Origin: an uncultured Planctomycetaceae bacterium
Lineage (GTDB): Bacteria; Planctomycetota; Planctomycetia; Pirellulales; Pirellulaceae
Length of the DNA: 16,451 bases
Assembly (NCBI GenBank): GCA_903927685.1
Contig: CAIYOB010001325.1
Coordinates: 1-16,451 of the forward strand
Reading direction: 5' to 3'
Shown: piece by piece, positions 2,058 through 16,451 of the stretch
How the letters are laid out: the number at the start of each line of letters is the position of its first letter
How positions within the stretch are numbered: position 1 is the first letter of the stretch
Translations under genes and position numbers: made by a program
The notes under the pieces: model-generated
Told to the model about the DNA's origin: nothing
Databases searched by the model: none
Seen by the model: only the letters and a program-made list of their open reading frames with translations

Positions 2058-3428
2058 ATGAATCGCCGCAGATTCCTTCAATCGAGTGTCGCCGGCTTGA
2101 CCGGCTTGGCTTTGTTCCGGTCCCAGGGTGGCGCCGCGGACTTGGCCAGCCCCGCGAAACGCGTCGGACTGATCGGCACCGGCTGGTACGGCAAAGTCGA
2201 CTTGCTGCGGCTGATCCAAGTCGAGCCGGTCGAGGTGGTATCGCTGTGCGACGTCGACAAGCGTCTGCTGGCCGAAGCGGCCGAAATCGTGGCGACGCGC
2301 CAGTTGTCCAAGAAGACGCCGCGGACGTACAGCGACTACCGCGAGATGCTCAAGGAAAAGGACCTGGACCTGGTGCTGATCGGCACGCCGGACCACTGGC
2401 ACGCGCTGCCGATGATCGCGGCGGTTCAGGCTGGAGCCGATGTCTACGTGCAAAAGCCGATCGGCGTGGACGTGGCCGAATGCCTGGCCATGGAGGCGGC
2501 GGCGCGCAAGTACGAGCGTGTGGTCCAAGTCGGCACGCAACGCCGCAGCACGCATCATTTGGTCGAAGCCCGCGAATTGATCCAGGAAGGCCGCTTGGGC
2601 CGGATTGGGCTGGTCGAGACCTACTGCTACGGCCGGCGCGGGATCAGCAACCCACCCGACGAGTTGCCGCCGGAGAACCTCGATTACGAAATGTGGACCG
2701 GGCCGGCTCCGCTGCGGCCGTTCAACAAGAGCATTCACCCTCGCGGCTGGCGGAGCTACATGGAATACGGCAACGGCACGATCGGCGACATGGGCATTCA
2801 CATGATCGACATGGCCCGCTGGATGCTGGGACTGGGCGCGCCGAAGCATATCAGTTCGACCGGCGGCAACTATTTCCACCAGGAAGGCAAGCCGAACATC
2901 TCGGACATGCAGACGGCCACGTTCGACTACGGCGACCTGCAGATGACCTGGCAGCATCGCCACTGGGGCGCCAATCCCGATCCGAAGTACTGGTGGGGCG
3001 CGAATTTCTACGGCGAAAAGGGCACGCTCAAGGCCAGCGTGTACGGCTTCGACTTCACGCCTCTGGACCGCGGCGAGTCGCTTCACCGCGAGTGGAACGA
3101 CGCCCAGGCCAAGTATCCGGTGGACAGCGATCAGTATCCGCAGGACAAGGACGAGAAGGGGATCGAGATCCACGTCGCGCCGGCCGTCCGGGCGCACATG
3201 AAGGATTGGGTGCAGTCCAGCCAGCGCCGCAGCCGGCCGGTTGCCGATATCAGCGAAGGCTGCACGTCCACGGTGGCCTGCATCCTGGCCAACGTCTCGC
3301 TGCAGCTGGGACGCAGCCTGACTTGGGACGCCGAGAAAGGCCAAGTGGTCGGCGACGAGGAGGCCAACCGCCTGTTGGCTCGCCCCTACCGCGCGCCGTG
3401 GGTCCATCCCCAGCGGGACGCGGTGTAG
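2058..3428 (+). CDS. Gfo/Idh/MocA family oxidoreductase with Tat signal
   Basis: This is an NAD(P)-dependent oxidoreductase of the kind that acts on sugars, inositols or their derivatives. The 456-residue protein starts with a twin-arginine-type signal (RRRFLQ, residues 3-8, then a hydrophobic stretch), so it is predicted to be exported folded, as is common for this family in planctomycetes. The Rossmann motif GTGWYG is at 40-45. The usual EKP motif appears as QKP with the lysine at 133. The C-terminal alpha/beta domain carries the GDMGIHMID signature with D244 and H248, the expected catalytic region. AGGAG at 2046-2050 lies 7 bases before the ATG and supports this start. It follows the epimerase by 49 bases on the same strand. 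The substrate is not predictable: this family is heavily expanded in planctomycetes and covers many substrates. Confidence 0.93.
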   Translation: MNRRRFLQSSVAGLTGLALFRSQGGAADLASPAKRVGLIGTGWYGKVDLLRLIQVEPVEVVSLCDVDKRLLAEAAEIVATRQLSKKTPRTYSDYREMLKEKDLDLVLIGTPDHWHALPMIAAVQAGADVYVQKPIGVDVAECLAMEAAARKYERVVQVGTQRRSTHHLVEARELIQEGRLGRIGLVETYCYGRRGISNPPDELPPENLDYEMWTGPAPLRPFNKSIHPRGWRSYMEYGNGTIGDMGIHMIDMARWMLGLGAPKHISSTGGNYFHQEGKPNISDMQTATFDYGDLQMTWQHRHWGANPDPKYWWGANFYGEKGTLKASVYGFDFTPLDRGESLHREWNDAQAKYPVDSDQYPQDKDEKGIEIHVAPAVRAHMKDWVQSSQRRSRPVADISEGCTSTVACILANVSLQLGRSLTWDAEKGQVVGDEEANRLLARPYRAPWVHPQRDAV

Positions 3429-3434
3429 GTCGCA

Positions 3435-3454
3435 GAACGGAGTCCATTCCGTTC
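3435..3454 (+). repeat. Small inverted repeat after the oxidoreductase gene
   Basis: A perfect 7-bp stem (GAACGGA / TCCGTTC) with a 6-base loop sits 6 bases after the oxidoreductase stop codon. It could form a short hairpin in the transcript. No run of T follows, so it is not a convincing intrinsic terminator. It may protect the mRNA 3' end or be chance. The rest of the 138-base gap before the next gene shows nothing recognisable. Confidence 0.35.
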
Positions 3455-3566
3455 CAGCGTGAGCGTTTGAAGTGCCTGACCCTCGGCGAGAACCATTCCT
3501 CTTGCTACCGGTGCTGGTTTTCGTTAGAAGCCCGTCTTCTGACCGTCACCCTTCGCCGGACGCTGT

Positions 3567-4721
3567 GTGCACAGATTCTCGTCGCTAGCATTGCCGCTGT
3601 TGCTGCTAACCGTCTGGTCCGCCAGTCCGAACCGGCTGGCGGCTCAAGATGCTCCGGCCGGTCCGCCCGCCGGAGCACGGTGGGCGCCTACGCGGGAGCC
3701 CGCCAGCGACCAACCGCCAGGACTCACCGAGGGGCCGCCCCCGCTGCTGGAACGACTGCCTCCTACCGACGAACCCCTGGTCGCCGAACCGTTGCCGTTG
3801 GACCAGCCGGCGCCGGACCGTCCTCCCGGCGGTGGCTTGTCGCCGGGCGGCAACCGGGCCCCGTTCACCGCCCAGCTGTTCTGGATTCCGCCGCAGAACC
3901 TGAAAGGCCAGCCGGGCACGCTGTCGCTCAGCGGCGAGGAAATCAAGCTGGCCTTTCCGCTGCACATCGCGGAAAACGGGATCTGGTTAGGGCTGGCCGA
4001 CGCCCAGCGGCTGGAGATCAGCACGTCGGCGCTGCTGCCGGACTCGGGGATCCCGGTCCCGGATGAGCTGTGGGACCTCGAAGTCGGCACGCTGCACATT
4101 CGCGACCTTGGGGAAGGCTGGCAAGCCGGGGGCATGGTCCGTGTCGGCTCGCCCAGCGACCGGCCCTTCGAGCAACTGCGCGACATGACCTTCACGCTGC
4201 TGGGCTTCTTGACGATCCCCAGTGGCGAACGGAACGCCTGGAATTTCAGTCTGTTCTATTCGCCCACCGGGCAGATCATCTACCCGCTGCCGGGCATCGC
4301 CTACGTTTGGCGGCCCAGCCCGCAGTTCCAGGCCAACGTGGGGATTCCGTTTTCCGTCGAGTATCGGCCCACGGATACCTTCAGCGTCACGGCCAACTAT
4401 CGCCCTTTGAATCATGTCCAGGTGCAGGCTCGGCAAACGCTGGGGCCGTTGTGGAGCGTCTACGGCGGCTACCAGACGGTGACCGAGACCTATTGGCTGG
4501 CCGACCGCGTGGCTGATGAACAACGCTTGTACCTGTTCGATCAACGTTTGACGCTGGGCGTCCAGCGGGAACTGGGCGGGCGGTGGAGTGTCGACGTCTC
4601 GGCCGCTTATGTCTTCGATCGCCAGCTCTTCCAGGCGGAAAAGTTCTCCGGCAGCCGGGCTGACGAACTGGGAATCGAGCCTGGCGTGGCGGGGACGGTT
4701 CAGCTAATTTGGACTCGGTGA
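3567..4721 (+). CDS. Predicted outer-membrane beta-barrel protein (DUF6268-like)
   Basis: This is a 384-residue secreted protein, probably an outer-membrane barrel. Residues 1-26 form a signal peptide (a basic residue, then SLALPLLLLTVW, with likely cleavage after LAA). Residues 27-95 are a proline-rich, low-complexity linker. From about residue 100 to the end, the sequence alternates hydrophobic and polar residues in beta-strand style, with aromatic girdles such as FSLFYSPTGQIIYPLPG and WSVDVSAAYVF, and it ends in an aromatic-containing strand (LIWTR). This matches my recollection of DUF6268, a planctomycete and Bacteroidetes barrel family of unknown function. The start is GTG at 3567, chosen because it opens the signal peptide; no strong ribosome-binding site is visible. 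The role could be porin-like or structural. It is probably its own transcription unit, given the 138-base gap upstream. Confidence 0.75.
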   Translation: MHRFSSLALPLLLLTVWSASPNRLAAQDAPAGPPAGARWAPTREPASDQPPGLTEGPPPLLERLPPTDEPLVAEPLPLDQPAPDRPPGGGLSPGGNRAPFTAQLFWIPPQNLKGQPGTLSLSGEEIKLAFPLHIAENGIWLGLADAQRLEISTSALLPDSGIPVPDELWDLEVGTLHIRDLGEGWQAGGMVRVGSPSDRPFEQLRDMTFTLLGFLTIPSGERNAWNFSLFYSPTGQIIYPLPGIAYVWRPSPQFQANVGIPFSVEYRPTDTFSVTANYRPLNHVQVQARQTLGPLWSVYGGYQTVTETYWLADRVADEQRLYLFDQRLTLGVQRELGGRWSVDVSAAYVFDRQLFQAEKFSGSRADELGIEPGVAGTVQLIWTR

Positions 4722-4777
4722 CTACATCGTGTGCTTGAGCCTGTCCTACGAGCACCATGGATACCCCAATTGCAGAT

Positions 4778-4782
4778 GGGAG
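4778..4782 (+). promoter_or_regulatory. Ribosome-binding site that sets the radical SAM D start
   Basis: GGGAG lies 8 bases before the ATG at 4791. It favours that codon over the earlier in-frame start at 4731, whose 20 extra residues resemble neither the paralogues nor a B12-domain N-terminus. Confidence 0.55.
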
Positions 4783-4790
4783 TCCCGCCG

Positions 4791-6176
4791 ATGAAGGTTC
4801 TGCTGATCATGGCCGATGCCAATATGCACAAGTTTTGGATTTTCGGCCGGTTGAAGTCGGCGCGGGAGGCGCCGCTGACTCTGACGACATTGGCGGCTAT
4901 CGGGGGCGAAGTGCCGGACGTTGAATTTCGTTTGGTGGACGAGAGCGTCGATACGGTGCCGCTGGATTACCCGGCAGACCTTGTGGGGATCAGCGTCCTG
5001 ACCGGGACGGCGCGGCGGGCCTATGCGCTGGCCAACCACTTTCGCAGCCGAGGCATTCCCGTCGTGCTCGGCGGGGCTCACGTGACGATCCTGCCGCAGG
5101 AGGCGGCGCGGTACGCGGATGCGATCGTGGTGGGGATGGCGGAACAGACGTGGCCGCAGGTGTTGCGCGACTTCTTGGCCGGGAAAATGTCGCGGGTGTA
5201 CCGGGCGGAGCCGGAACTGGGCGAATACCTCGCGGGTGTCCCGACGCCCCGGTACGATCTGCAACGCAGCAGCGGCTACATGGTGCCACACGTGGTCCAG
5301 GCGACGCGTGGCTGCCTGCACAGTTGCGACTTCTGCGCGGTGCCGGTCATCTGGAAACGGTTTCTGCGGCGCCCCGTCGCCGATGTCATTCGGGACATCC
5401 AGGCCATTCCCGCGCGCCGGTTCGTGCTCAGCGACGTGTGCCCGTTTGACGACGTGGACTACGCTAAGGAACTGCTGCGAGCGATGATCCCGCTGAAGAA
5501 GAAATGGGGCGGGCTGGCGACGACCAAGATCACGTCCGACCCGGAGTTGTTCGATCTGCTGGTCCGCAGCGGCTGCGGCTTTCTGCTGATTGGCTTCGAG
5601 TCGATCAGTCAGCCGTCGCTGAACAAGATTCACAAGGGCTTCAACGCACGGGAGTCCTATGACGAGGTCGTGGGCCGGCTGCGGCAGGCGCGGATCATCG
5701 TCCAAGGCTGCTTTGTGTTCGGCTTCGATGAAGACAACACGGACGTGTTCGCTGCCACGGTGGACGAGGTCCAACGGCTGAAGATCGACATCCCGCGGTA
5801 CTCCATCTACACCCCCTATCCCGGAACGCACCTCTTCCGTCGCTTGCAGGCCGAGGGGCGGATTCTGAGCTACGACTGGGGCGACTACGACACGATGCAC
5901 GTCGTCTTCCAGCCGCAGCAAATGAGTCCGGTCGAACTGTTCGAGGGGTTTCGCTGGGCCTACCGCGAGACGTTCCGCTGGAAGAGAATCCTGCGCCGCG
6001 CGGTCTCCAGCGGCCGACGATTCCCGATCACGCTGGTGGGCAACATCACCTATCGCAATTTCGTCCGGCGGATTCACATCGCGAAGGGGTTTGAGCAGCC
6101 GTTGGGAGCCTACGCCGAGCGGATTTCAAACGCCTGTCTCGAAGACCGCGGGCCAGCCGGGGCGTGGGTCGAGTAG
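4791..6176 (+). CDS. Radical SAM protein with B12-binding-like N-terminal domain (copy D)
   Basis: This is a 461-residue radical SAM protein of the cobalamin-binding architecture. Residues 1-140 form a Rossmann-like B12-binding-type domain (MKVLLIM start, VVLGGAHVTILP at 91-102). The radical SAM core follows, with the 4Fe-4S cysteines in RGCLHSCDFC (C175, C179, C182), GFESIS and GCFVFGFDEDN motifs, and PYPGTHLFRRL near the end of the barrel. A basic C-terminal tail of about 90 residues follows. The cobalt-ligating DxHxxG motif is absent: the equivalent segment reads DESVDTV. Relatives with this layout include methyltransferases and lipid-modifying or C-C-bond-forming enzymes such as HpnP and GrsA, but the substrate here is unknown. 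It is clearly more distant from the three minus-strand copies than they are from each other. Its 3' end overlaps the GH3 gene on the other strand by 51 bp. Confidence 0.9.
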   Translation: MKVLLIMADANMHKFWIFGRLKSAREAPLTLTTLAAIGGEVPDVEFRLVDESVDTVPLDYPADLVGISVLTGTARRAYALANHFRSRGIPVVLGGAHVTILPQEAARYADAIVVGMAEQTWPQVLRDFLAGKMSRVYRAEPELGEYLAGVPTPRYDLQRSSGYMVPHVVQATRGCLHSCDFCAVPVIWKRFLRRPVADVIRDIQAIPARRFVLSDVCPFDDVDYAKELLRAMIPLKKKWGGLATTKITSDPELFDLLVRSGCGFLLIGFESISQPSLNKIHKGFNARESYDEVVGRLRQARIIVQGCFVFGFDEDNTDVFAATVDEVQRLKIDIPRYSIYTPYPGTHLFRRLQAEGRILSYDWGDYDTMHVVFQPQQMSPVELFEGFRWAYRETFRWKRILRRAVSSGRRFPITLVGNITYRNFVRRIHIAKGFEQPLGAYAERISNACLEDRGPAGAWVE

Positions 6177-7790
6177 GAGAGGCTTGATGTCTCCCCAGCG
6201 CATCCCGCGGGCGACACATTCGCGACGGTAGATCGCCCAGCCGGATTCGCCGTGAGGGGACAGGCTGAAAACCTCCACGGGCGCCAATTGGCCGAGGCGG
6301 CGGGCATAGGCGTAGTGGGGGTTTTCACCAAGGCGGCAATCGAGTTCGGCCGCCAGATCTCGCCACAACGGAGCCGTGACCTCGAGGGTGGGGACCTGCA
6401 GGTAGAGACGGTAACGCGGCGGTCGCGAGTCGGCAGAGACGAGGAGAGCGAACGTAGGCCGAATGTGGTGCTGCTCGAACAGGGCCTGCAGCACCGTGCG
6501 GACGTGCGGCTCCGCGAGCTTCTCGCCGACCAGGTCGCTGATGCAGTCGGCCTTGCCGAGAAACCGTAGCAGAGGACACTGGTTCTCGAAGCCGACGACT
6601 TCGATCTGGTCGCGCAGTTCGTACCGATACAACCCGCCGCCAGTCGTGAGGATCACGCCATAGTGTCCGCCGGGTTCCAACTCGTGCGCGAGGCGGATTT
6701 CTTGGGGGGCGTCCACCGGCTGGAATTCAAAGAAATGAGATCGTACGGCCAGGGCGGCACCCGGCCGGCCCAGGAGTGGCAGCGAGACACAGCCTTCGGT
6801 CGCCAGAAGGCCCTTGGGTTGGAACTCGACGGTGGGAAAGAGCGATTGCAGTTCTTCGTAGTAGCGGCTGGCCCCGGCGTCGGCCCAGCAACTGATGAGT
6901 GCCAGCTTGGGCCAGATGAGCCGCAGTTTCTCCAGCCACGGCAAATCGCGGCGGAAGATCGTCTGCAACTCTTCCGCCCGCCGGCCCGCCGCCGTGGCGG
7001 CGAATTGGCTTGACAGCTCGGGCGGCAGCGGGTCCGGCGGCTCCGGTCGGCCGCGACGAAGATCGAAGCACAGACGATCATGCCAGGCTTCCAACGGCGC
7101 CAACAAGGCCGTCAGGAACGTGGGATTCCAGACGGAGATCGAGGTCAAGTCGGCGGCGCGGAGGAGAAACCACAAGGTGCAGTATTGAAAGGACTCGACG
7201 TCGGACAGGCGGCCCACGTTGGGGGGCAAAACCTGCAAGCGTTGGATCAGCCACCGTTGGGCCGCGCCCAGATAGGCCGCGTCGTCCTCGAATCCGATCC
7301 GAATGCCGCAGGCGGTTCGCCGTCCTGCAGCCACCGCGGGCGAAATCGACCAATAGGCTCGGCCTTGACGCAGTGCGGGCCGATGCCGGAACAGATCGTA
7401 CACCCAGGCCGACACGGCCCGCTGGAATTGCTGTCGCAACGAGGCCGTGAAGGGGATCAGCTTTTCGCCGCCGGTCGAGCCGCTCGTCGGTTCCAGCAGT
7501 TCGACCGGGTCGCGCGTCAGCACGCCCCGTTCTCCTTCGCCGATGCGGCGAATCGCGTCGGCGTAATCGTCGTAGCGGGAGAGCGGCACGCGGTCCTGGT
7601 ACGCGCGCGGTCCGTCGAGTTGCGACAAGCCGTGCTTCCGGCCGAACTCAGTATCGCGGTTGCGGCGCAGAATGGCGGCGAGGACTTCTGCCTGAGTGGC
7701 CGCCACACGACCGGTCGCGCGGTGGAAAGCTCGCGCCTCGCCGCCGCAGCGGAGCATCCAGGAGCTGTTCAACCACCAAGCCGCATTCAT
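6126..7790 (-). CDS. GH3-family acyl-adenylating amide synthetase
   Basis: This is a member of the GH3 branch of the ANL (acyl-adenylating) superfamily. Such enzymes activate a carboxylic acid with ATP and join it to an amine, usually an amino acid; plant members conjugate auxin and jasmonate. The 554-residue length is normal. The ATP-binding loop EPTSGSTGGEK is at residues 100-110, the acyl-AMP-contacting ATEG at 330-333, YRYELRDQIEVVGF at 388-401, and the hinge FLGKADCISDLVGEKL at 410-425, where the C-terminal domain begins. The start is ATG at 7790; its ATGA overlap with the upstream gene's stop indicates translational coupling. It is the last gene of the minus-strand operon. Bacterial GH3 proteins are poorly characterised, so both the acid and the amine are unknown; the neighbouring acyltransferase-like and radical SAM genes suggest a dedicated biosynthetic route. 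Confidence 0.88.
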   Translation of the reverse strand: MNAAWWLNSSWMLRCGGEARAFHRATGRVAATQAEVLAAILRRNRDTEFGRKHGLSQLDGPRAYQDRVPLSRYDDYADAIRRIGEGERGVLTRDPVELLEPTSGSTGGEKLIPFTASLRQQFQRAVSAWVYDLFRHRPALRQGRAYWSISPAVAAGRRTACGIRIGFEDDAAYLGAAQRWLIQRLQVLPPNVGRLSDVESFQYCTLWFLLRAADLTSISVWNPTFLTALLAPLEAWHDRLCFDLRRGRPEPPDPLPPELSSQFAATAAGRRAEELQTIFRRDLPWLEKLRLIWPKLALISCWADAGASRYYEELQSLFPTVEFQPKGLLATEGCVSLPLLGRPGAALAVRSHFFEFQPVDAPQEIRLAHELEPGGHYGVILTTGGGLYRYELRDQIEVVGFENQCPLLRFLGKADCISDLVGEKLAEPHVRTVLQALFEQHHIRPTFALLVSADSRPPRYRLYLQVPTLEVTAPLWRDLAAELDCRLGENPHYAYARRLGQLAPVEVFSLSPHGESGWAIYRRECVARGMRWGDIKPLLLDPRPGWPAVFETGV

Positions 7791-8530
7791 GGTTCTGGCT
7801 CCGCCAGCCGCGGCTCGGCGCCCAGCACGCGGCGCACGGCCGGAGTGAGATTGTCGCGGGCCAAACGGGCCAGGCAGCAGAGTTCCTCGCCGCGGCGGTG
7901 GCCCGGATTGCGTTCGACAAAGAACCGCACGTGCGGGTCGCGGAGCCGCCGGTCGTCGACATCGGCCACTCCCGGACGCAACCGGTCTTTGTCGGCTCCG
8001 GCCCGCACGACACCGGCCGCCGGATCATACGCAGCGCCGAACTTGTGCCGGCCCAACGCGTCGATCAGCCGCTGGGCCCACTCGGGTGTGGGCACGTCGT
8101 ACCGCGGATAGAACGCGCGGAAAAACAGCGACAGGAAACGATACGTGCGATAGCCCTTGGAGATCAGAAACCAGTACAGCGGCGCCGGTGCGCACTGGTC
8201 GATCAAGTCGAGCGCGAGCCCCGCCCACGCGCGGACCAGCGCTGGCTCGCTCCAGTGATCCCGCGAGACGATCGTGTCCCCGGAGAATAGCGATTTGACC
8301 GGCACGCCATCGACGTTGACCTCCAACAACCGCTGCGTGGAGAAGCCGCACAGCGCATCGGTCTGCCGATCCAGGAGCATGACCACCCATTGCTTTTCGG
8401 CCATGTCGGCCAGGAAGGCCGTTCGCGTGACGTTCTCGAAGTACTGCTGCATCAGAGACAGCATCTCCTCACGCCGCGCCGGGGAAATCGACGCGGCCGG
8501 AACCACCGTGCTTTCCATCGTGTCAGACAT
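7787..8530 (-). CDS. Acyltransferase-like protein, probably GNAT fold
   Basis: This is a 247-residue protein that I recognise only as a recurrent, unnamed family. Residues 45-60 (QWVVMLLDRQTDALCGF) fit the central strands of a GNAT acetyltransferase. The LFSGDTIV strand and the AWAGLALDLID helix that follow fit the acyl-CoA-binding region, but no clear RxxGxG loop is visible. The C-terminal part has conserved-looking stretches: LYWFLISKGYRTYRFL, FYPRYDVPTPEW and FFVERNPGHRRGEELCCL. The start ATG at 8530 has AAAGGA 6 bases upstream on the minus strand. Its stop overlaps the GH3 start by 4 bases, so the two are translated together and probably act in one pathway. An acyl-transfer role is inference from the fold-like pattern and context. 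Confidence 0.7.
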   Translation of the reverse strand: MSDTMESTVVPAASISPARREEMLSLMQQYFENVTRTAFLADMAEKQWVVMLLDRQTDALCGFSTQRLLEVNVDGVPVKSLFSGDTIVSRDHWSEPALVRAWAGLALDLIDQCAPAPLYWFLISKGYRTYRFLSLFFRAFYPRYDVPTPEWAQRLIDALGRHKFGAAYDPAAGVVRAGADKDRLRPGVADVDDRRLRDPHVRFFVERNPGHRRGEELCCLARLARDNLTPAVRRVLGAEPRLAEPEP

Positions 8531-8578
8531 CAGGCGTCCTTTACTTTGTCCTGGCTACGGCCCGACCACGCTGTGAAT

Positions 8579-9694
8579 TCACAGACTCCCCAACTCCAAG
8601 TATCTCGGCCGGGCGTCGAGGGCCTGGCGGAACGGCTCACCGTCTACCCAGCACGCCAGGTACAAATTCGTTGCGTAATGCTCCGCCGGGTAGCGGCGCG
8701 TTGCGGCGAGCAGCGGATCGGACTCGTGCATCCCGACCAGCAGATACTCCCACGGACCGCCGCTGGTGCGCTGCACGAGGGTCCCGAGCAGCTCCTGAAA
8801 GATGAGCGGATCGTCGCTTTCCACCAGCGGCAGCGCGGCGATCAGGTGGCGGATCGGCACGTTCGGCAGTGGCAGTCGCGGCAGGCCGCGGACCTGGGCC
8901 CAGACATTATACAGTGGCCGCAGGCGGCGCCGCAGCCGCCCGTAGTCGTGAACCACGATCTGGCGAAAGGCGTGCTGGTCCCAGCCGCCCAACGTGCCGA
9001 CCAGTTGTCCGCCCCGAAACGCCAGCAGTAGATCCTCCGGCCGCAAGCCTCGAAAGACGCCTTCGTCCGAGAAGAAACCACCGGCCTCGTAGCACGGAAA
9101 GAACTGGCGTTGCGGACCGACACGGCGGATGAAGTCGAGGACGACGGGTACGTCGTCGACACGGGCCGGACGAGTCTCGACGCCAGCGCCGCTGCGCTCC
9201 CACTTCCTGCCGCGCGAAAGCCCGATCGCGACTGTCAAGTAGCGTCCGGCGTAGTGGTACCTCGGCAGGCCGGCCCGGCCCCCGGTCAACGCCGCAAGCG
9301 CGGGCTGGTTGTCGCTGGCGATGGTCGTCAGGTACAGCGGCGTGCGGCCGTCTGCGTGCAGCTGGCGAAGGAAGGCATAACCGCGTGCCAACATGCCCAG
9401 GCCGCGATGGCCTGCCAGCACGCGCAGGCCGCTCAGATAGCCCACGTCGGCCGGCTGGCCGTTGACGTACCGCGGCCCGACGGACCGCGACGCGACACCG
9501 ATGATCCGCCGAGTCTGCGGATCGCGTGCGGCCAACGTCTGCCGAAAGCGGCCGTCAACCACGGCGGCGCCGAAGTAGCTGGGCTCGCGGTGAAAGCTGA
9601 CCGCGATCGAGCCCGGCATCGGCGTCGCCGCCAGTGCCGCCCGTAGTTCGCCGTCGTCGGCCGGCGTCGCCAACTCAAACCGATACCGGCTCAT
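8579..9694 (-). CDS. GNAT-family N-acetyltransferase, probable double domain
   Basis: This is a 371-residue protein, about twice the length of a single GNAT domain. The N-terminal half carries a good acetyl-CoA-binding segment: a VGYLSGLRVL strand followed by GHRGLGMLARGYAFL, which matches the R/QxxGxG/A pyrophosphate loop, then YLTTIASDNQPAL. The second half starts again with a typical GNAT opening (ETRPARVDDVPVVLDFIRR) and contains LLLAFRGGQLVGTLGGWDQ, a normal second-strand pattern, but its CoA loop is less clear, so it may be non-catalytic. The ATG at 9694 lies inside the end of the upstream radical SAM gene (20-bp overlap), consistent with coupling. The likely role is acyl transfer to an amine within the operon's pathway; the substrate is unknown. 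Confidence 0.82.
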   Translation of the reverse strand: MSRYRFELATPADDGELRAALAATPMPGSIAVSFHREPSYFGAAVVDGRFRQTLAARDPQTRRIIGVASRSVGPRYVNGQPADVGYLSGLRVLAGHRGLGMLARGYAFLRQLHADGRTPLYLTTIASDNQPALAALTGGRAGLPRYHYAGRYLTVAIGLSRGRKWERSGAGVETRPARVDDVPVVLDFIRRVGPQRQFFPCYEAGGFFSDEGVFRGLRPEDLLLAFRGGQLVGTLGGWDQHAFRQIVVHDYGRLRRRLRPLYNVWAQVRGLPRLPLPNVPIRHLIAALPLVESDDPLIFQELLGTLVQRTSGGPWEYLLVGMHESDPLLAATRRYPAEHYATNLYLACWVDGEPFRQALDARPRYLELGSL

Positions 9695-11036
9695 GCCCCG
9701 CCTCCTGCTCCCACGGTCCGGCTCCCAGCTGCAGCCCCTGACGCCGCTGGATGTCGCCGCGAGCGCCGAAATTCAGGGCCAGAAACGTCGCCAGGTTCGG
9801 CAGGCTGGAGGCGTTGACTTTCCAATCTGCCAAGCGGCCGAGGATCGACGGCCAACCGAAAAACTGCCGCCGCGCTTGCAGGCACGCCGCTTGCAGTTCC
9901 TCCGGTGACACCCGGCGAGGCCGAAACACGACGTCGCCGACGCAGCCGTCAGGATCGAGCCACCACTTGGGCGTCAGCAGCCGGCCTTCCTGCTCCAGCC
10001 GCCGGAACAGCGGGGTGCCGGGAAACGGGACCACCTGGTTGAAGGCGGCCAGAAACAGCTGCTGTTCGCGGGCGAAATCGACGCTTCGGCGGATCGTCTC
10101 GGCGTCGTCGTGGTCGTAGCCGAATAGGAACGTTCCGTAGATGGCCAGCCCGTGCTTGCGGAGGTGCCCCAGACTTTGCGCGTAATTCTCCGCCGCCAGA
10201 TTCCAGGATTTTCCCATCGCCTGCAGGTTGGCCGGTTCCAGAGACTCCACGCCGACCAGTACACCGCGGCAGCCACTGGCGACCATCCGTTCCAACAGCC
10301 GCTCGTCGCGCGCAGCGTGCAGCCCAATCTGGCCGATCCAGCGGCGACGCAACGGCGTCAGTTCGCGGCACAGTTCCCGCGCCCACTGGGGCTGAGCGGC
10401 GAAGTTGTCGTCGACCAGGAAGAACCAACGCTGGCCGCACGGCTCCATTTCGGCCGCGACTTCCGCCGGGGGCCGACGGTTCTGGCGAGCCTGATGAAAC
10501 GCCGTGATCGAACAGAAATCGCAAGCGAGCGGACATCCTCGAGTCGCCTCTATCAAGGCGACTCGCTGATAGTCCTTTCCGCGAAACAGCTCACGCCGCG
10601 GACGCACCCCGGCCAGTGGACGCGGGGCCGCCGCTCGATACACGGCTTCCAGACGATGGTGCCGAGCGTCAGCGAGCAGCCGCTGCCACACGGGCTCCGC
10701 GTCGCCGACGACGATGGCGTCAGCCTCCCGTCCGGCCTCTTCCGGAATCAACGTCACGTGATAGCCTCCCAGGACCACCGGCACGCCACGTGCGCGGAAC
10801 TGCCGCGCGATCCTGTAGGCCCGCAGCGCCGTGAACGTCTCCACGCTGATCGCCACGAGGTCCGTCGGCTCGTCGAACGGAATGCGCTCCAGTCGGTCAT
10901 CGAAGAAGCGGACCTCGATGTCGGGCGGCGTCAGGCCCGCCAGCACGGCCATCGCCAGCGGCTCCATCTGCCACGACCGGACATACGGATGCCCCGGCTT
11001 GCGTCCGACCGCGGGATAGATGAGCGTCAGCTTCAT
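9675..11036 (-). CDS. Radical SAM protein with B12-binding-like domain (copy A)
   Basis: This 453-residue protein is one of three tandem paralogues. Residues 1-140 are a B12-binding-type Rossmann domain (MKLTLIYP start, SWQMEPLAMAVLAGLTPPD, PVVLGGYHVTLIPEE). The radical SAM core has RGCPLACDFC with cysteines C168, C172 and C175, followed by FFLVDDNFAAQ, GVESLEP, YGTFLFGYDHD and PFPGTPLFRRL. The C-terminal ~80 residues (WWLDPDG, RRVSPEEL, then a basic helical tail) are shared with copies B and C. The DxHxxG cobalt-ligand motif is replaced by DDRLERI. The ATG at 11036 is chosen over an upstream in-frame start at 11147 because it aligns with the paralogues and avoids 101 bases of overlap with copy B; the gap to copy B is 10 bases. 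No strong ribosome-binding site is seen, so translation may depend on coupling. The substrate is unknown. Confidence 0.9.
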   Translation of the reverse strand: MKLTLIYPAVGRKPGHPYVRSWQMEPLAMAVLAGLTPPDIEVRFFDDRLERIPFDEPTDLVAISVETFTALRAYRIARQFRARGVPVVLGGYHVTLIPEEAGREADAIVVGDAEPVWQRLLADARHHRLEAVYRAAAPRPLAGVRPRRELFRGKDYQRVALIEATRGCPLACDFCSITAFHQARQNRRPPAEVAAEMEPCGQRWFFLVDDNFAAQPQWARELCRELTPLRRRWIGQIGLHAARDERLLERMVASGCRGVLVGVESLEPANLQAMGKSWNLAAENYAQSLGHLRKHGLAIYGTFLFGYDHDDAETIRRSVDFAREQQLFLAAFNQVVPFPGTPLFRRLEQEGRLLTPKWWLDPDGCVGDVVFRPRRVSPEELQAACLQARRQFFGWPSILGRLADWKVNASSLPNLATFLALNFGARGDIQRRQGLQLGAGPWEQEAGHEPVSV

Positions 11037-11046
11037 GAGGGGGCTC

Positions 11047-12375
11047 TCAACGCAGGCCGAATCGCATTCCCTGTTTCTTGAACGTCTCGCGGCGGAAGAG
11101 GGGATTGTAGCGAAGGTACAACCCCAAGCGGTAGGGACTGCGGACATATCGCCAGTCGCAAGCTCGGAAGAGGATCGAGCCGAAGCTGTTAAATCGTCGC
11201 CGGGCTTGGAAGCAGACGTCGGTGAGTTCCTCGGCCGACATTCCGCGAGGCTGGAAGGCCGCGTGGTTGAAGCGATACTCCGGGTGCAGCCACCATTGCC
11301 CGTCGTACAGCAGGCGGCCTTCCGCCCGCAGGGTCTCGTACAAGGCGGTACGCGGGTACGGCATCAGAATGTTGAACGCCGCGAAGCAGAACTTGTTGTC
11401 GATCGCGAAGTCCACGGTTCGCTCGATGGAGTCCCGCGTGTCGTGATCGTGGCCGCAGGTGAAGGCGGCCCAAACCTGCAGCCCGTAATCGCGCAGGACC
11501 TGGAGCGGCTCGCGGTAGTCACGGCCGGCGTCCGTCAGGTTGGGAGCCTTGCGTGACTCGCGGATGTTCTCCGGGTTCAGCGATTCGAACCCGATGACGT
11601 GCCCCAGGCAGCCGCTGGCGGCCATCAGTTCCATCAGTTCGCGGTCTTCCGTCATGTCGATGCTGGCCTGCGAGACCCAGCGAATCCGCAGCGGGATCAG
11701 TTCGCGGCACAGGGCTTTGGCGGCCTCGCGGTTCCACAGCATGTTGTCGTCCACAAAGAAGAGCAGTCGCCGCGGCTGAGACTCGATTTCCGCAACCACT
11801 TCGCGGACGGCCCGCAGGTAGTGCGTCTGGTGGAAGTAGGCGCTGACCGCACAGTACGTGCAGTCGAACCCGCAGCCGCGGCTGAATTGCAGCAGGGCCA
11901 ACGGCAGGTAGCCCCGGCCGCGGAACAGATCACGCCGCGTCAGCGTGCCGGGCTGCGGCGGTCCCACGGGAGCTTGGTACAGCGGCTGTAACCGCCCGCG
12001 GCGGCAGTCGTCCAGCACTTGCGTCCACAGGAACTCCGCATCGCCCAGGTACAGCGAATCCGCGTGCTGCGCCGCTTCCTCGGGCAGCAGCGTCGGATGA
12101 ATTCCGCCCAGAATCACGGGCACGCCGCGTTGGCGGAACTCGGCCGCGATTTCGTACGCGCGGCGGGCCGTGAACGTTTCGACGGTGATCGCGGCCAAGT
12201 CGGTCGGCTCGTCGTAGGGAATCGGCTCCATCCGGTCGTCGTACATCGCGACCTCGACGTCCGGCGGCGTCAGCGCGGCCAGGACGCCCAACTGGAGCGG
12301 CTCCATTCGCCCCGAGTCCACGTACAGGCTGTGCTCAAGCCGGCCGATGTTGGGCTTGATCAGACTGACCTTCAC
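11047..12375 (-). CDS. Radical SAM protein with B12-binding-like domain (copy B, diverged core)
   Basis: This 442-residue protein is the middle paralogue. Layout matches copies A and C: MKVSLIKPNIG, MEPLQLGVLAALTPPD, PVILGGIHPTLLPEE, then the core with RGCGFDCTYC (C168, C172, C175), LFFVDDNMLW and QASIDMTEDRE. Two core positions differ from copies A, C and D. The GTFLFGYDHD-like strand is AAFTCGHDHD (around residues 303-312), and the PGT turn is PYPRTAL (339-345). That suggests a changed substrate or an altered, possibly reduced, activity. The N-domain has DDRMEPI where DxHxxG would be. The start is GTG at 12375, supported by a strong GGGGAGGT ribosome-binding site. The first 41 bases overlap the end of copy C. 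Confidence 0.9.
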   Translation of the reverse strand: MKVSLIKPNIGRLEHSLYVDSGRMEPLQLGVLAALTPPDVEVAMYDDRMEPIPYDEPTDLAAITVETFTARRAYEIAAEFRQRGVPVILGGIHPTLLPEEAAQHADSLYLGDAEFLWTQVLDDCRRGRLQPLYQAPVGPPQPGTLTRRDLFRGRGYLPLALLQFSRGCGFDCTYCAVSAYFHQTHYLRAVREVVAEIESQPRRLLFFVDDNMLWNREAAKALCRELIPLRIRWVSQASIDMTEDRELMELMAASGCLGHVIGFESLNPENIRESRKAPNLTDAGRDYREPLQVLRDYGLQVWAAFTCGHDHDTRDSIERTVDFAIDNKFCFAAFNILMPYPRTALYETLRAEGRLLYDGQWWLHPEYRFNHAAFQPRGMSAEELTDVCFQARRRFNSFGSILFRACDWRYVRSPYRLGLYLRYNPLFRRETFKKQGMRFGLR

Positions 12376-13708
12376 GCTCCACCTCCCCGGACGTCAGCGA
12401 ATCCGCGCCTCCCAACGCCATCCCTTGCTTCCTCCTAATCTCCCGCCGCGAGATGAAGTTGCCCAACAGAAACGCGGCCAGGCGACCGGGACTGCGGCAG
12501 TTCGTTCGCCAATCCCAGACGCGGCGGAGAATCGACCGAAATGTATTGAAGGCCCGCCGCGCCCGAAAGCAGCCCTCCGCCAATTGTTCGGGGCTCATCC
12601 CTCGCGGCCGGAAGAGTGCCTGCCCGTAGCGGAATCCGGGTGCCAGCCACCAGCGGTCGTGCAGCAGTCGCCCTTCGGCCGCCAGCCGGCGGTACAAGGC
12701 CGTGCCGGGCGTCGGCGTGAGCGGGTTGAAGTTCGCCAGAAAGAACCGCGACCGCAACGCGAAATCGACGCAGGCGTCGAACGCATCGACCGTGTCGTGA
12801 TCGTACCCGAACACGAACGTACCGTAGACCATGATGCCGTGTTCGCGGATCCTGCGAAGCGACGCGGCATAGTCTCCGTCCTGCACCGCCCACCCCTTGT
12901 TCATCTGCTGGAGGTTGCGCGGATCCAGCGATTCGAAGCCGATCACCATCGCCTGGCAGCCGCTGTCCGCCATCAGCTTCAGCAGTCGCGGTTCCCGGCA
13001 CACGTCGATGCTCGCTTGGCACGACCAGCGGACCCGCAACGGAATCAGCGCTCGGCACAACGCCTCCGCTCGGCCCTGGTCGGCCAGCAGATTATCGTCG
13101 ACAAACAGCAGATGCCTGCGGCCCAGCGACTCGATCTCAGCGATGACTTCTTCCACCGGCCGCCAGCGGAGGTTCGTGCCGTAGAAGGCATGGATTGAAC
13201 AGAAATCGCACGCGAACCGGCACCCGCGTCCGAATTGCACAAGGTTCAGCGGAGCGTACCGTTTGCCCCGAAAGATGTCTCGCCGGGGCAGCGGCCCGGC
13301 GAGTGACGGCGTCTCGGCCGCCTGATACACGCGCCGCAACTTTCCCGCCCGCGCGTCCTCGACGACCTCCGGCCAGATTCCTTCCGCATCGCCGACGACA
13401 ACGGCGTCGGCATGCTGGAGCGCCTCCTCAGGCAACAGCGTCGGATGATACCCGCCCATGACAACCGGGATTCCACGCCGCCGGAAGCGAGCCGCAATCT
13501 GATAGGCATTCCGCGCCGTGAACGTCTCGACGGTCATCGCCACCAAGTCCGTCGGCGCATCGACGGGAATCGGTTCCAGCCGCTCGTCCATCAATTCCAA
13601 CTGCACATCCGCCGGAGTCAAACTCGCCAGAATCGCCAAGCTCAACGGCTGCATCGCATCCGCGGAACGGACATCAGCCAGATTAGGTCGGACAAGTGCG
13701 ACTCGCAT
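12335..13708 (-). CDS. Radical SAM protein with B12-binding-like domain (copy C), first operon gene
   Basis: This 457-residue protein is the promoter-proximal member of the three paralogues. The B12-binding-type domain covers residues 1-135 (MRVALVRPNLA, MQPLSLAILASLTP, PVVMGGYHPTLLPEE). The radical SAM core contains RGCRFACDFC with C163, C167 and C170, then LLFVDDNLLADQ, QASIDVCREP, IGFESLDP, YGTFVFGYDHD and PTPGTALYRRL. The cobalt-ligand motif is absent (DERLEPI). Its last 41 bases overlap copy B. I prefer the ATG at 13708 because it aligns with the paralogues; GTG at 13726 is in frame and would add six residues. Neither has a ribosome-binding site, and a -10-like TAGAAT lies only 8 bases before the ATG, so the message may be leaderless. 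The chemistry is probably methylation, C-C bond formation or rearrangement on an unknown substrate. Confidence 0.9.
   Translation of the reverse strand: MRVALVRPNLADVRSADAMQPLSLAILASLTPADVQLELMDERLEPIPVDAPTDLVAMTVETFTARNAYQIAARFRRRGIPVVMGGYHPTLLPEEALQHADAVVVGDAEGIWPEVVEDARAGKLRRVYQAAETPSLAGPLPRRDIFRGKRYAPLNLVQFGRGCRFACDFCSIHAFYGTNLRWRPVEEVIAEIESLGRRHLLFVDDNLLADQGRAEALCRALIPLRVRWSCQASIDVCREPRLLKLMADSGCQAMVIGFESLDPRNLQQMNKGWAVQDGDYAASLRRIREHGIMVYGTFVFGYDHDTVDAFDACVDFALRSRFFLANFNPLTPTPGTALYRRLAAEGRLLHDRWWLAPGFRYGQALFRPRGMSPEQLAEGCFRARRAFNTFRSILRRVWDWRTNCRSPGRLAAFLLGNFISRREIRRKQGMALGGADSLTSGEVEREGQSDQAQHRPA
12381..12388 (-). promoter_or_regulatory. Strong ribosome-binding site for radical SAM copy B
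   Basis: On the minus strand GGGGAGGT lies 5 bases before the GTG at 12375, inside the coding end of copy C. It fixes a GTG start for copy B and is the clearest Shine-Dalgarno site in the operon. Confidence 0.65.
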
Positions 13709-13716
13709 GGCCGCGG

Positions 13717-13722
13717 ATTCTA
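13717..13722 (-). promoter_or_regulatory. Candidate extended -10 for the radical SAM operon
   Basis: On the minus strand TAGAAT is preceded by TGC, the extended -10 pattern (TGnTATAAT-like). With a normal 6-7-base distance to the start of transcription, the RNA would begin 2-3 bases before the ATG at 13708. The hexamer at the 17-base spacing (TTCGCT) matches a -35 poorly. This is a candidate only. Confidence 0.35.
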
Positions 13723-13821
13723 GCACGGCGAGTCAAGAAAGCGAATCCATCAACACCATTTGGCCGACGTTGCGGTAGCGTTCGCCTTGGTGGTGGCACG
13801 CGATTGACTTTGGCTCGTTTC

Positions 13822-13874
13822 ACCGCGACCCAACGGGGAGCGTGAGGCCGACGCGCTCCCCGCTGGGTCGCGGT
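13822..13874. repeat. Large palindrome, 21-bp arms
   Basis: The two 21-base arms, 13822-13842 and 13854-13874, are complementary except at one position (A opposite C, where a G would complete the stem). The loop is 11 bases. The arm core reads CGCGACCCAACGGGGAGCG. The near-perfect pairing and GC-rich stem are typical of dispersed, REP-like palindromes, and I recall very similar elements scattered through planctomycete genomes. It lies upstream of the radical SAM operon and could also act as a bidirectional transcription block, but no T-tract is present. Confidence 0.7.
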
Positions 13875-13882
13875 TAACCAAC

Positions 13883-13897
13883 GCGGCCTTCGGCCGC
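13883..13897. repeat. Short perfect GC palindrome
   Basis: GCGGCC and GGCCGC form a perfect 6-bp stem around a TTC loop, 8 bases after the larger palindrome. It is probably part of the same composite repeat. Confidence 0.5.
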
Positions 13898-13920
13898 AAC
13901 CCAATGAATCCGGGAATCGT

Positions 13921-13986
13921 GAACAGGAGGAAACGGAGGGAACAGAGTGCAGGAGCTTTCTCCGTGGTTTCTGTTACCTCCTGTTC
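13921..13986. repeat. Imperfect inverted repeat with purine-rich arm
   Basis: The outer arms GAACAGGAGGAAAC (13921-13934) and GTTACCTCCTGTTC (13973-13986) pair at 13 of 14 positions. The interior continues as repeated GGAAAC/GGAACAG-like units, including a second purine-rich block, GGAGGGAACAGAG. I recall similar GGAAACAGAGG-type dispersed repeats in planctomycetes and cyanobacteria, but cannot confirm that here. Confidence 0.55.
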
Positions 13987-14337
13987 AAGAAATGCGCGCA
14001 AGAACCCGGGTGCTGAATCGGGGCGGCCGGGGCGTGCGCAGCCCGCTGGATCATCCCCCGGGATATTCCGACCTACCGCCTCGTTTTCCATCCGTGTTAC
14101 GATCCCAATCCGGCGGTGACCGGAATGAGGAATGCCCGACTGTCCGACAGCTCCGCCGATTCTTGTGCCGTCGCCGTTGCAATTCTCCCCAGAACACCAA
14201 TCATCATCCCTGATTGATGGATTCTAAGTATTTGCGGGGGGTGTGGCTAACCGAACCTGTCGTCGCAAGCCCTGGCGAGCGGAACGAAAACACTCGGCCG
14301 CTTGCCATCAACATTTCGGCTTGAACGCACGGCGTCG
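13987..14337. other. About 350 bases with no recognisable gene
   Basis: Open frames here are short and have no family resemblance. A TTACGAT sequence (about 14097) resembles a planctomycete -10 element, but only a 30-residue frame follows (ATG at about 14125). The stretch may be the remains of a lost gene and its promoter, or simply spacer. Confidence 0.4.
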
Positions 14338-14463
14338 GTGCGACCTCCCACAAAACAGGGACGCTATGGGTCTCTTGGCAAATTGAAATTCCTCGGATGG
14401 GCTACCCTCCTGGCCGCTTACTTCGCCTGTTTTCCCAGTTTGTGGGAGGCCGTTCTTGCGTAA
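14338..14463 (+). CDS. Candidate tiny membrane peptide (first of two)
   Basis: This is an open frame of 41 codons from a GTG at 14338, or 26 from a TTG at 14383. It encodes one hydrophobic helix, FLGWATLLAAYFACFPSLW, preceded by lysines, and it ends in TAA. There is no clear ribosome-binding site and no family match I recognise. It is listed because the hydrophobic, lysine-flanked composition is unlike ordinary frame noise, and because a second such frame follows 21 bases later. The chance of it being a real gene is low to moderate. Confidence 0.22.
   Translation: MRPPTKQGRYGSLGKLKFLGWATLLAAYFACFPSLWEAVLA
14344..14449. repeat. Inverted repeat with 11-bp perfect arms
   Basis: CCTCCCACAAA (14344-14354) and TTTGTGGGAGG (14439-14449) are perfectly complementary and enclose 84 bases. 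The match continues imperfectly inward (ACAGGG against CCCAG). It could be terminal repeats of a very small non-autonomous element or the base of a structured RNA. It overlaps the first candidate membrane peptide, and both readings cannot easily be true. Confidence 0.4.
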
Positions 14464-14484
14464 GGCGGCGAGAATGGACTTGAC

Positions 14485-14604
14485 ATGCTTCTCTCGCTGA
14501 TTTCACTGGTGGGCTCGCTTTCGCTGGTCGTCGTGGCGCTCGTGCTGGCGCTCCGCGGATGGACGTGGGCCGCGCATGATCGGGCAAAACGCCACCAGCG
14601 ATGA
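14485..14604 (+). CDS. Candidate tiny single-span membrane protein (second of two)
   Basis: This 39-residue frame starts at an ATG and has a clean layout: a hydrophobic span (LLSLISLVGSLSLVVVALVL, residues 2-21), a tryptophan-rich boundary (RGWTWAAH) and a basic tail (DRAKRHQR). That is a typical small inner-membrane protein with its C-terminus in the cytoplasm. Upstream, GGCGAGAA could be a weak ribosome-binding site. I do not recognise a family. It ends 12 bases before the predicted hicA -35 element, so it is probably not in the hicA transcript. Confidence 0.33.
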   Translation: MLLSLISLVGSLSLVVVALVLALRGWTWAAHDRAKRHQR

Positions 14605-14616
14605 GGAGGCTTCCCG

Positions 14617-14645
14617 TTGGTCCCCGCGGGGGAATTTGGTAAACT
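14617..14645 (+). promoter_or_regulatory. hicAB promoter with palindrome in the spacer
   Basis: TTGGTC (14617-14622) and TAAACT (14640-14645) are separated by exactly 17 bases, a good sigma-70-type spacing. The spacer contains the perfect 10-bp palindrome CCCCGCGGGG (14622-14631), a plausible operator. A 6-bp stem (CCCCGA 14666-14671 with TCGGGG 14681-14686) follows in the leader before hicA. Type II toxin-antitoxin operons are usually autorepressed, so an operator here would be expected. Confidence 0.5.
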
Positions 14646-14709
14646 GACGCAGGCGCCCTTTTTGTCCCCGACGACGGTGATCGGGGCTCTTCCTGGGTGA
14701 GTCGAGATC

Positions 14710-14714
14710 GGGAG
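14710..14714 (+). promoter_or_regulatory. Ribosome-binding site that sets the hicA start
   Basis: GGGAG lies 7 bases before the GTG at 14722 but only 1 base before the in-frame TTG at 14716. The GTG is therefore the likely start, giving the usual HicA opening MTVRDAIRLLEDDGW. Confidence 0.6.
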
Positions 14715-14721
14715 CTTGGAT

Positions 14722-14910
14722 GTGACTGTTCGCGATGCAATCAGGTTGCTCGAAGACGATGGCTGGCAGTTGGTGGCGCAGAAGGGTAGCCACCGCCAGT
14801 ACAAGCACCCGACCAAACCTGGTCGCGTCACCGTCGCCGGCAACATGAAAGACGATCTTGCGCCGGGTACGCTGAACAGCATCCTGAAGCAAGCAGGATT
14901 GAAGGAGTAA
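14722..14910 (+). CDS. hicA: HicA-family toxin (mRNA interferase)
   Basis: HicA toxins are small ribosome-independent RNases that cut mRNA when not held by HicB. This 62-residue protein has a normal double-stranded-RNA-binding-like HicA fold pattern: LLEDDGWQLVAQKGSHRQYKH with the catalytic histidine (H24), then a VTVAG strand and the conserved ending DDLAPGTLNSILKQAGLK. All family landmarks are present, so it should be active. The hicB start lies 4 bases after its stop, with hicB's AAGGAG site inside the end of hicA; this linked arrangement is typical. The gene is intact even though the neighbouring transposase is broken. Confidence 0.92.
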   Translation: MTVRDAIRLLEDDGWQLVAQKGSHRQYKHPTKPGRVTVAGNMKDDLAPGTLNSILKQAGLKE

Positions 14911-14914
14911 CTCG

Positions 14915-15124
14915 ATGCAACAGTACTTGATCGTGATCGAGAAAGCGAAGGGCAACTACTCCGCCTACTCACCGGACCTTCCGGGCTGCGTCGCCACAGG
15001 ACAGACGAAGCAGGAAACCGAGGAACGGATGCGGGAGGGTATTCGCATGCACCTCGCGGGACTCGCCGAGGACGGACTTCCGATACCGGCGCCCTTCGCG
15101 AGCGCCGAATACGTCGAAGTGTGA
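14915..15124 (+). CDS. hicB: HicB-family antitoxin, short form
   Basis: This 69-residue antitoxin partners HicA. The partial RNase-H-like HicB fold is evident: YLIVIEKAKGNYSAYSPDLPGCVATG, then TKQETEERMREGIRMHLAGLAEDG and the typical ending LPIPAP...AEYVEV. The protein ends there, with no C-terminal ribbon-helix-helix or helix-turn-helix DNA-binding domain, so promoter control by HicB alone is doubtful. AAGGAG lies 7 bases before the ATG. Immediately after its stop codon begins homology to a decayed transposase. Confidence 0.92.
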   Translation: MQQYLIVIEKAKGNYSAYSPDLPGCVATGQTKQETEERMREGIRMHLAGLAEDGLPIPAPFASAEYVEV

Positions 15125-15546
15125 CTGGAAAAGAGGCCGTGGAACGTACGCAAATGCGGCTGTTGGCGTATTGCGTGTTACCCAACCATTGGCACTTGGT
15201 TGTCTGGCCGCGAGACGACGGGGAGCTGTCCCGGTTTACGAGCGAATCTCGCCCCTGGTCCCTGGTGCGGAACGTTGGCGTGGGGGCAGTCTGCATCGCT
15301 GGAAACTACGGTACGGCGAAGGAAAAGTCGTTGTTGGCGGCTTGGCCATTGCCGCGTTGGCCGGGCTGGGTCGAGCACGTCCACGGACCGCAAACCGAGG
15401 CGGAGTTGGCGGCGCTGCGTCGTTGCGGGCAACGCGGCAGTCCGTTCGGCGAGGGAGCATGGTGCGACCAGATCGCCCGCCGACTGGGACTGGAAAGCAC
15501 GCTTCGCCCCCAAGGCCGCCCCAAAGAACGCAAAAACGGTTCCTGA
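15125..15546 (+). pseudogene. Decayed REP-associated tyrosine transposase (RAYT, Y1/HUH family)
   Basis: RAYTs mobilise REP palindromes using a HUH motif and one catalytic tyrosine. The visible start, EAVERTQMRLLAYCVLPNHW, matches the family's HUH block (HWH) but lacks the ~50 N-terminal residues. After GELSRF the text jumps to the late RANL segment, so the central part carrying the catalytic tyrosine region is deleted (roughly 50-60 codons). The remaining text is spread over three frames: RANL (15239-15250), LVPGAERWRGGSLHRWK (15255-15305), and YGTAKEKSLLAAWPLPRW onward (15307-15543). The well-preserved C-terminus is PQTEAELAALRR ... RRLGLESTLRPQGRP. An open frame crosses the region by chance, so automatic annotation may call it a gene; the protein cannot be functional as a transposase. 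Confidence 0.85.
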
Positions 15547-15550
15547 CACC
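15538..15550. repeat. Transposase-end repeat GGTTCCTGACACC
   Basis: This 13-base sequence contains the pseudogene's stop codon and is followed by TTCCCCAAAAAA. I recall GGTTCCTGACACC next to the 3' end of many RAYT genes, where it probably belongs to the mobilised repeat. Only one copy is visible in the window, so this rests on recollection. Confidence 0.4.
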
Positions 15551-16392: not shown

Positions 16393-16451
16393 GGTTCGCG
16401 GATTGGCTGGGTGAGAAGCGCGTTCGCTTGCTCGTCGCCCTCGAACACCTC
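16380..16451 (-). CDS. Possible C-terminal end of an upstream minus-strand gene
   Basis: A second minus-strand frame enters from the window edge and reads EVFEGDEQANALLTQPIREP before WSL and a TAG stop at 16380. It overlaps the antitoxin-like frame by 13 bases (GTG 16392), a layout typical of two coupled small genes. The fragment is only 23 residues long, so it cannot be assigned. Confidence 0.25.
   Translation of the reverse strand, partial: EVFEGDEQANALLTQPIREPWSL

Follow-up and report, generated by a model that had tools for sequence, protein, structure and literature searches.

Which compound would a bacterium make with an amide-forming GH3 enzyme, two acyltransferase-like proteins and several radical S-adenosylmethionine (SAM) enzymes encoded side by side? 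This question is raised by an operon on contig CAIYOB010001325.1 of an uncultured Planctomycetaceae bacterium (assembly GCA_903927685.1), of which positions 1 to 16,451 were analysed; this whole stretch is called the window. The reading favoured here, with a probability of roughly 0.55, is that the operon encodes a single pathway whose product is an N-acylated amide, probably of lipid-like nature, with C-H bonds changed by the radical SAM enzymes. At its centre stands a three-gene core encoding a double-GNAT protein (GNAT371), a second GNAT-fold protein (P247) and a GH3 synthetase. It is very likely that the core genes serve one pathway, and an acyl-amide product is plausible from the enzyme classes. 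The genes of the locus are the following:

12335..13708, minus strand: rSAM1, B12-binding radical SAM protein, first gene of the operon (alternative GTG start at 13726)
11047..12375, minus strand: rSAM2, radical SAM protein with a weak B12-binding domain (Pfam)
9675..11036, minus strand: rSAM3, B12-binding radical SAM protein, adjoining GNAT371 (open frame extends to 11147)
8579..9694, minus strand: GNAT371, double-GNAT protein with a predicted N-myristoyltransferase (NMT) arrangement and an invariant C-terminus (predicted structure, alignment)
7787..8530, minus strand: P247, predicted GNAT-fold protein without a Pfam family (predicted structure)
6126..7790, minus strand: GH3-type acyl-acid amido synthetase, not OlsH (PF03321, 172.8 bits)
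4791..6176, plus strand: rSAMplus, fourth B12-binding radical SAM protein (open frame from 4731, likely start 4791)

The six minus-strand genes are tightly packed, with overlaps of 4 bases between GH3 and P247, 20 between GNAT371 and rSAM3 and 41 between rSAM2 and rSAM1, and with gaps of 48 bases between P247 and GNAT371 and 10 between rSAM3 and rSAM2. These values, taken from the open reading frame coordinates, agree exactly with those given in the first-pass annotation of this DNA. The rSAMplus gene is convergent with the GH3 gene, the two overlapping tail to tail by 51 bases.

Recurrence of the three-gene core

An alignment of 16 GNAT371 rows was scanned against a collection holding one genome per species, and at least 38 loci were found, a lower bound since only two peptide patterns were used. 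In sampled genomes, where scoring covered a part of the first-look candidates and the counts are again lower bounds, GNAT371 was present in at least 15 of 199 Planctomycetota, in at least 5 of 299 genomes from the phylum of Massilia and 3 of 200 from its order, and in at least 10 of 194 from the phylum of the cyanobacterial carrier. After the removal of duplicates (L085, an upstream extension of the L008 contig; L090, lying on the contig of L026; and the repeat genomes G002, G011, G018 and G021), 66 loci remained for comparison. The first-pass annotation had made its operon depend on the genes being regular neighbours elsewhere, and they are: at 45 of the 66 loci, hereafter the trio loci, GNAT371 has both P247 and GH3 at a distance of no more than 8 kb. 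The fraction is 37/47 among loci with 3.5 kb or more of sequence to either side and 30/38 among those from the one-genome-per-species collection. Carriers of the trio belong to Planctomycetota, Pseudomonadota (among them Massilia glaciei B448-2, whose locus L022 is of the Rieske/FG-GAP variant, and Parachitinimonas caeni), a cyanobacterium and others, and a neighbourhood that recurs across phyla is therefore more than chance. The order is GNAT371-P247-GH3 in 22 trio loci, P247-GH3-GNAT371 in 20 and GH3-GNAT371-P247 in two, the genes being on two strands in the remaining one. At locus L030, GH3 and GNAT371 are joined in a single open frame of 929 amino acids. The six genes had been proposed as one unit; its steady core is P247-GH3-GNAT371, and rSAM1 and rSAM2 are variable extras, found in clades of six and five rows, respectively.

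The 21 loci without the trio comprise 11 distant relatives (L080-L084 and L095-L100; 24-32% identity to the best query and 20-26% to the window protein), four at which the contig is cut close by (L018, L024, L027 and L038) and six lacking one or both partners within 8 kb (L006, L017, L025, L029, L075 and L093), P247 of L017 being 8.7 kb away. L029 is from Neisseria elongata, where the GNAT371 relative (9980-11095) lies without the core between thymidylate synthase and M23 peptidase genes.

Co-occurrence leads in the same direction as adjacency. Among the 199 Planctomycetota genomes, GNAT371 was found in 15, P247 in 17 and both in 13. Core-clade GH3, delimited at about 430 bits or more with split matches summed, a threshold set after the scores had been seen, was present in 16, including 15 of the 17 P247 carriers and 13 of the 15 GNAT371 carriers (hand count); any GH3 match at an E-value of 1e-20 was found in 49. 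The Fisher p-values, uncorrected for kinship, are 3e-15 for P247 with GNAT371 and 2e-19 for P247 with GH3. Two of the four P247 genomes without a GNAT371 match were inspected (L101 and L102); in each, the stretch separating rSAM3 from P247 holds a weak GNAT371 match (58 and 45 bits, respectively).

The GH3 synthetase

The identification of a GH3 synthetase was confirmed by the N-terminal, middle and C-terminal GH3 domains, scoring 172.8, 59.7 and 28.3 bits against a Pfam cut-off of 23.6. Its nucleotide motifs, the positions of which were compared with PMC12493201, are invariant in all 27 aligned rows: Thr102, Gly104 and Lys110; Thr331 and Glu332; Gly386, Arg389, Tyr390 and Asp394. Among solved structures, plant GH3 enzymes come closest (profile E-values of 4e-40 and weaker), and the three nucleotide motifs are common to the window protein and the plant enzymes JAR1, GH3.12 and GH3.15; the window GH3, however, is a distant bacterial protein whose operon also encodes acyltransferases and radical SAM enzymes, and hormone substrates are not implied.

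In the GH3 tree, built from frames of 450-640 amino acids with fragments and the 929-residue fusion excluded, 45 core proteins are split from 12 of the 14 other GH3 proteins by a branch supported at 100/100. The two remaining non-core rows have a branch length of 10, which makes their placement impossible, and because of them the label needs two changes on the tree instead of one. The GH3 of L033, a metagenome bin labelled Bordetella parapertussis, groups with that of the betaproteobacterial bin L020, and this label looks doubtful.

A planctomycete operon for close comparison is that of OlsH/OlsI/OlsG, the ornithine-lipid operon of Singulisphaera acidiphila (PMC12493201). Both operons have a GH3-type amide synthetase with recognisable motifs, but the partners in the window are GNATs and radical SAM enzymes, with neither OlsI nor OlsG among the scanned window genes. 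An identity of the window GH3 with OlsH was rejected, the score being 41.5 bits against the NF052613 cut-off of 620.

GNAT371 and P247

In N-myristoyltransferase, the C-terminal carboxylate acts as the catalytic base. The predicted fold of GNAT371 resembles that of eukaryotic NMT from end to end, the alignment running from residue 1 to the C-terminal residue 371; two adjacent GNAT domains are predicted in the NMT arrangement, and the C-terminus superposes on the end of the NMT chains. For comparison, among the tandem GNATs CA_C0184 (5kf1) and MAB_4324 (7q3a), 7q3a aligns no further than residues 1..352 of GNAT371, while the NMT rows extend to residue 371. The same C-terminal column ends 64 of 64 GNAT371 relatives (63 distinct, L090 duplicating the L026 contig), counted among proteins of at least 250 amino acids that have their stop codon inside the stretch and no stop interrupting the frame, and the fifth position from the end is Glu or Asp in 63/63. 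GNAT371 has no sequence match to the NMT families, none of which appears among the 13 Pfam families that at least one of 44 members matches at E≤1, and it sits in a biosynthetic operon, unlike eukaryotic NMT. The putative NMT-type catalysis by GNAT371 is supported by the predicted fold and the C-terminus, not by the sequence. Bacterial double GNATs of the NMT type are mentioned in PMC12219266, and the whole-length alignment of two GNAT domains with an invariant C-terminus is the likeness that GNAT371 shares with them and with the eukaryotic enzyme.

P247 is also predicted to have a GNAT fold, so that the two acyltransferase-like proteins of the first-pass annotation are both upheld by predicted structure, although neither matches a Pfam family at E 0.001. 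No PDB sequence matches P247 at E≤1, and in Pfam the window and L012 proteins have no GNAT family at E≤1. The CoA pyrophosphate motif Q/R-x-x-G-x-G/A is not visible in a consensus of 32 rows, read by eye. A FeeM- or LuxI-like role was considered as a candidate function of P247. Its relatives in the database number 4027 or more at E 1e-5.

Radical SAM genes

Three B12-type radical SAM genes had been recognised beforehand. All three exceed the Pfam cut-off for Radical_SAM (58.8, 52.9 and 39.8 bits for rSAM1, rSAM2 and rSAM3), but a fourth, rSAMplus (48.2 bits, likewise above it), had been missed. For the B12 type the scores differ: against a cut-off of 32.1 for the B12-binding domain, rSAM1 reaches 35.5 and rSAMplus 38.8 bits, rSAM3 equals it at 32.1 and rSAM2, at 24.6, stays below. 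The motif CxxxCxxC is found in all four window proteins (at residue 169 of the long form in rSAM1) and in 60 of 60 relatives. None of the four reaches the NCBIfam cut-off of BchE, HpnJ, the ladderane family or the other named B12-radical SAM families listed; the best partial matches are HpnJ and BchE, with 76 to 95 bits against cut-offs of at least 480.

In a tree of 58 radical SAM proteins, rSAMplus falls into its own deep clade of 20 rows (support 100/100), whereas the rSAM1 and rSAM2 clades hold, with the window included, the few rows given above. The rSAM3 gene keeps its place beside GNAT371 in many loci. Loci L005, L009 and L011 show the order rSAM1, rSAM2, rSAMplus, rSAM3, GNAT371, P247, GH3, with an extra gene between the first two in L011; the window has the same gene set, but with rSAMplus inverted behind GH3. 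The inversion is shared by L001 (75% identity) and L007 (72%), rSAMplus lying upstream of rSAM3 in other loci. A second small module, made up of a hexapeptide protein, an amidohydrolase and a further radical SAM protein, is located beside the core in L001 (8212-11457), L007, L021 and L094, and in L001 it also has a methyltransferase. ARAGORN calls a tRNA-Ala(ggc) at 10892-10979 on the minus strand, within the coding region of rSAM3; the call is probably false, since Rfam has no match anywhere in the window.

Tailoring sets and oxygen

The genes accompanying the core fall into two sets, one of B12-radical SAM enzymes and one of Rieske and desaturase-type enzymes together with an RnfD/FG-GAP protein. 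Radical SAM genes alone are found in 16 of the 45 trio loci, Rieske genes alone in 17, both in seven and neither in five, after two weak radical SAM matches (L016 and L022; 24-26% identity, more than 4 kb from any other such cluster gene) had been removed by hand; before this removal, both were counted in nine, radical SAM in 25 in total, and the RnfD/FG-GAP protein described below together with radical SAM in two. Thus 22 trio loci lack a convincing nearby radical SAM gene of this kind, and a Rieske gene is present in 17 of these 22. A strict swap of radical SAM for Rieske enzymes was ruled out, as seven trio loci carry both.

In the absence of radical SAM genes, the core is accompanied by a protein of 919-1014 amino acids (for example L016 5315-8071 and L012 11113-14154), in which an RnfD-like membrane domain is joined to FG-GAP and ASPIC domains. 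It occurs in none of the 23 radical SAM trio loci as against 13 of the 22 others (p 7e-6, uncorrected for kinship), and is possibly an electron supplier. Other neighbours within 8 kb in the 45 trio loci are desaturase-type (19), SnoaL-like (15), PAP2 (9) and hexapeptide (7) proteins, and at L031 the trio adjoins genes for ketosynthase III, reductase, epimerase and AMP-ligase-like proteins. Two further families, F6 and F8 (L016 1258-1917 and 8950-9909), are neighbours in 14 and 11 trio loci, respectively, and match no Pfam family at E 0.001.

The cytochrome oxidase gene COX1 is missing from 5 of 18 genomes having radical SAM without Rieske genes and from none of 20 others (Fisher 0.017), in assemblies that may be incomplete, with COX1 present in the other 13 of the 18, and with 8 of the 17 Rieske-only loci included. 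Desaturase-type genes are present in two of the 18 (G030 and G061), and one of these two also shows a weak Rieske match. The pattern suggests, though weakly, that the radical SAM set is suited to conditions of low oxygen. It is possible that the two sets are O2-independent and O2-dependent versions of one step. A precedent is found in the cyclases BchE (B12-radical SAM) and AcsF (diiron, O2), which catalyse one reaction independently of and dependent on O2, according to a preprint (PMC13142503). BchE is also among the best partial matches of the window proteins; nevertheless, rSAM1, rSAM2 and rSAMplus score 75 to 86 bits and rSAM3 61 against its cut-off of 481, and the substrate is unrelated as far as known.

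Proposed pathway and alternatives

In the pathway envisaged, P247 would make or pass on an acyl-amine precursor. GNAT371 would transfer an acyl group from a thioester to a primary amine in the manner of NMT, with its own C-terminal carboxylate as the general base, and GH3 would adenylate a carboxylic acid with ATP and join it to an amine. The B12-type radical SAM enzymes may change unactivated carbons in the acyl moiety, whether by oxidation, cyclisation, rearrangement or methylation, a role that in core relatives without them might instead belong to the Rieske and desaturase-type enzymes of the neighbourhood. The chemistry of GNAT and GH3 enzymes had already been put forward as the frame, rightly as it appears. 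The one-pathway reading is based on the conserved core, the GH3-GNAT371 frame, the co-occurrence, the predicted NMT arrangement and the intact GH3 motifs; the lipid-like reading on the acyl- and lipid-type neighbours, namely desaturase-type and PAP2 proteins and the ketosynthase III, reductase and AMP-ligase-like genes of L031. Since the three-gene core recurs in distant bacteria, the acyl-amide compound is probably widespread. No pathway combining GH3, GNAT and radical SAM enzymes was found in the open-licence papers searched, as the first-pass annotation had also supposed. The three protein groups, P247, GNAT371 and the GH3 clade, are tied into one testable pathway across several phyla.

A wider and only tentative proposal is that a bacterial NMT-type enzyme using C-terminal carboxylate catalysis works with GH3 in a widespread acyl-amide pathway, whose C-H oxidation would depend on B12-radical SAM enzymes where the lineage is O2-poor and on Rieske or desaturase-type enzymes where it is aerobic, a second switch of the BchE/AcsF type. 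If the carboxylate mechanism is true, a bacterial NMT-type enzyme would gain a pathway context; if both tailoring sets perform the same step, they would offer a natural experiment on O2-independent versus O2-dependent C-H chemistry. Against this, it could be argued that the radical SAM enzymes merely methylate the product, in a step unrelated to that of the Rieske/desaturase enzymes at other loci. Most cobalamin-dependent radical SAM enzymes are methylases (PMC13142503), and the seven trio loci with both sets agree with this view; on the other hand, HpnJ and BchE, the best partial matches, are non-methylating, yet they match far below their cut-offs, and the absence of the RnfD/FG-GAP protein from all radical SAM trio loci also speaks against methylation as the whole explanation, which is rather unlikely.

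A variant of ornithine-lipid or other amino-lipid synthesis would have GH3 make an N-acyl amino acid like OlsH, the GNATs add an acyl chain and the radical SAM enzymes alter a membrane lipid. OlsH is indeed a planctomycete GH3 enzyme making N-acyl ornithine (PMC12493201), with motifs to which those of the window GH3 correspond; but the low OlsH score, the lack of an α/β-hydrolase (OlsI) or OlsG-like gene among the scanned window genes and the fact that the OlsH cut-off was exceeded in none of 21 carrier genomes, G006 having a 394-bit match elsewhere, make this variant unlikely. Less probable still is a system resembling that of ribosomally synthesised and post-translationally modified peptides (RiPPs), in which GNAT371 would acylate a protein or peptide, like eukaryotic NMT, and the radical SAM enzymes would modify the same peptide. 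The nearest fold family of GNAT371 does acylate peptides, and RiPP radical SAM models are among the partial matches, but inspection of the operon and its borders by eye, made without a systematic search of short open reading frames, revealed no gene for a precursor peptide, and the alternative gene neighbours (desaturase-type, PAP2, ketosynthase) suggest lipid-like small molecules instead. Finally, the genes could be adjacent by chance, or clustered loosely with no pathway in common, as might be thought from GNAT371 relatives standing alone in some genomes (L029, L095 and L098-L100); the adjacency recurring across phyla in two gene orders and the GH3-GNAT371 single frame render this extremely improbable. 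The pathway for an N-acylated, probably lipid-like amide is accordingly retained as the preferred reading.

Flanking genes

The region 3-4721 on the plus strand encodes a relative of GH129-like glycosidases, an NAD(P)H-hydrate epimerase domain, a Gfo/Idh/MocA oxidoreductase and a DUF6268-like protein, with no link to the operon seen. Upstream of the operon, a HicA toxin and a HicB-like antitoxin form a pair at 14716-15124 on the plus strand (Pfam). The next open frame (15121-15546, plus strand) has no Pfam match and looks, as judged by eye, like the remnant of a REP-associated transposase; it is followed by a DUF4258 protein at 15709-15999.

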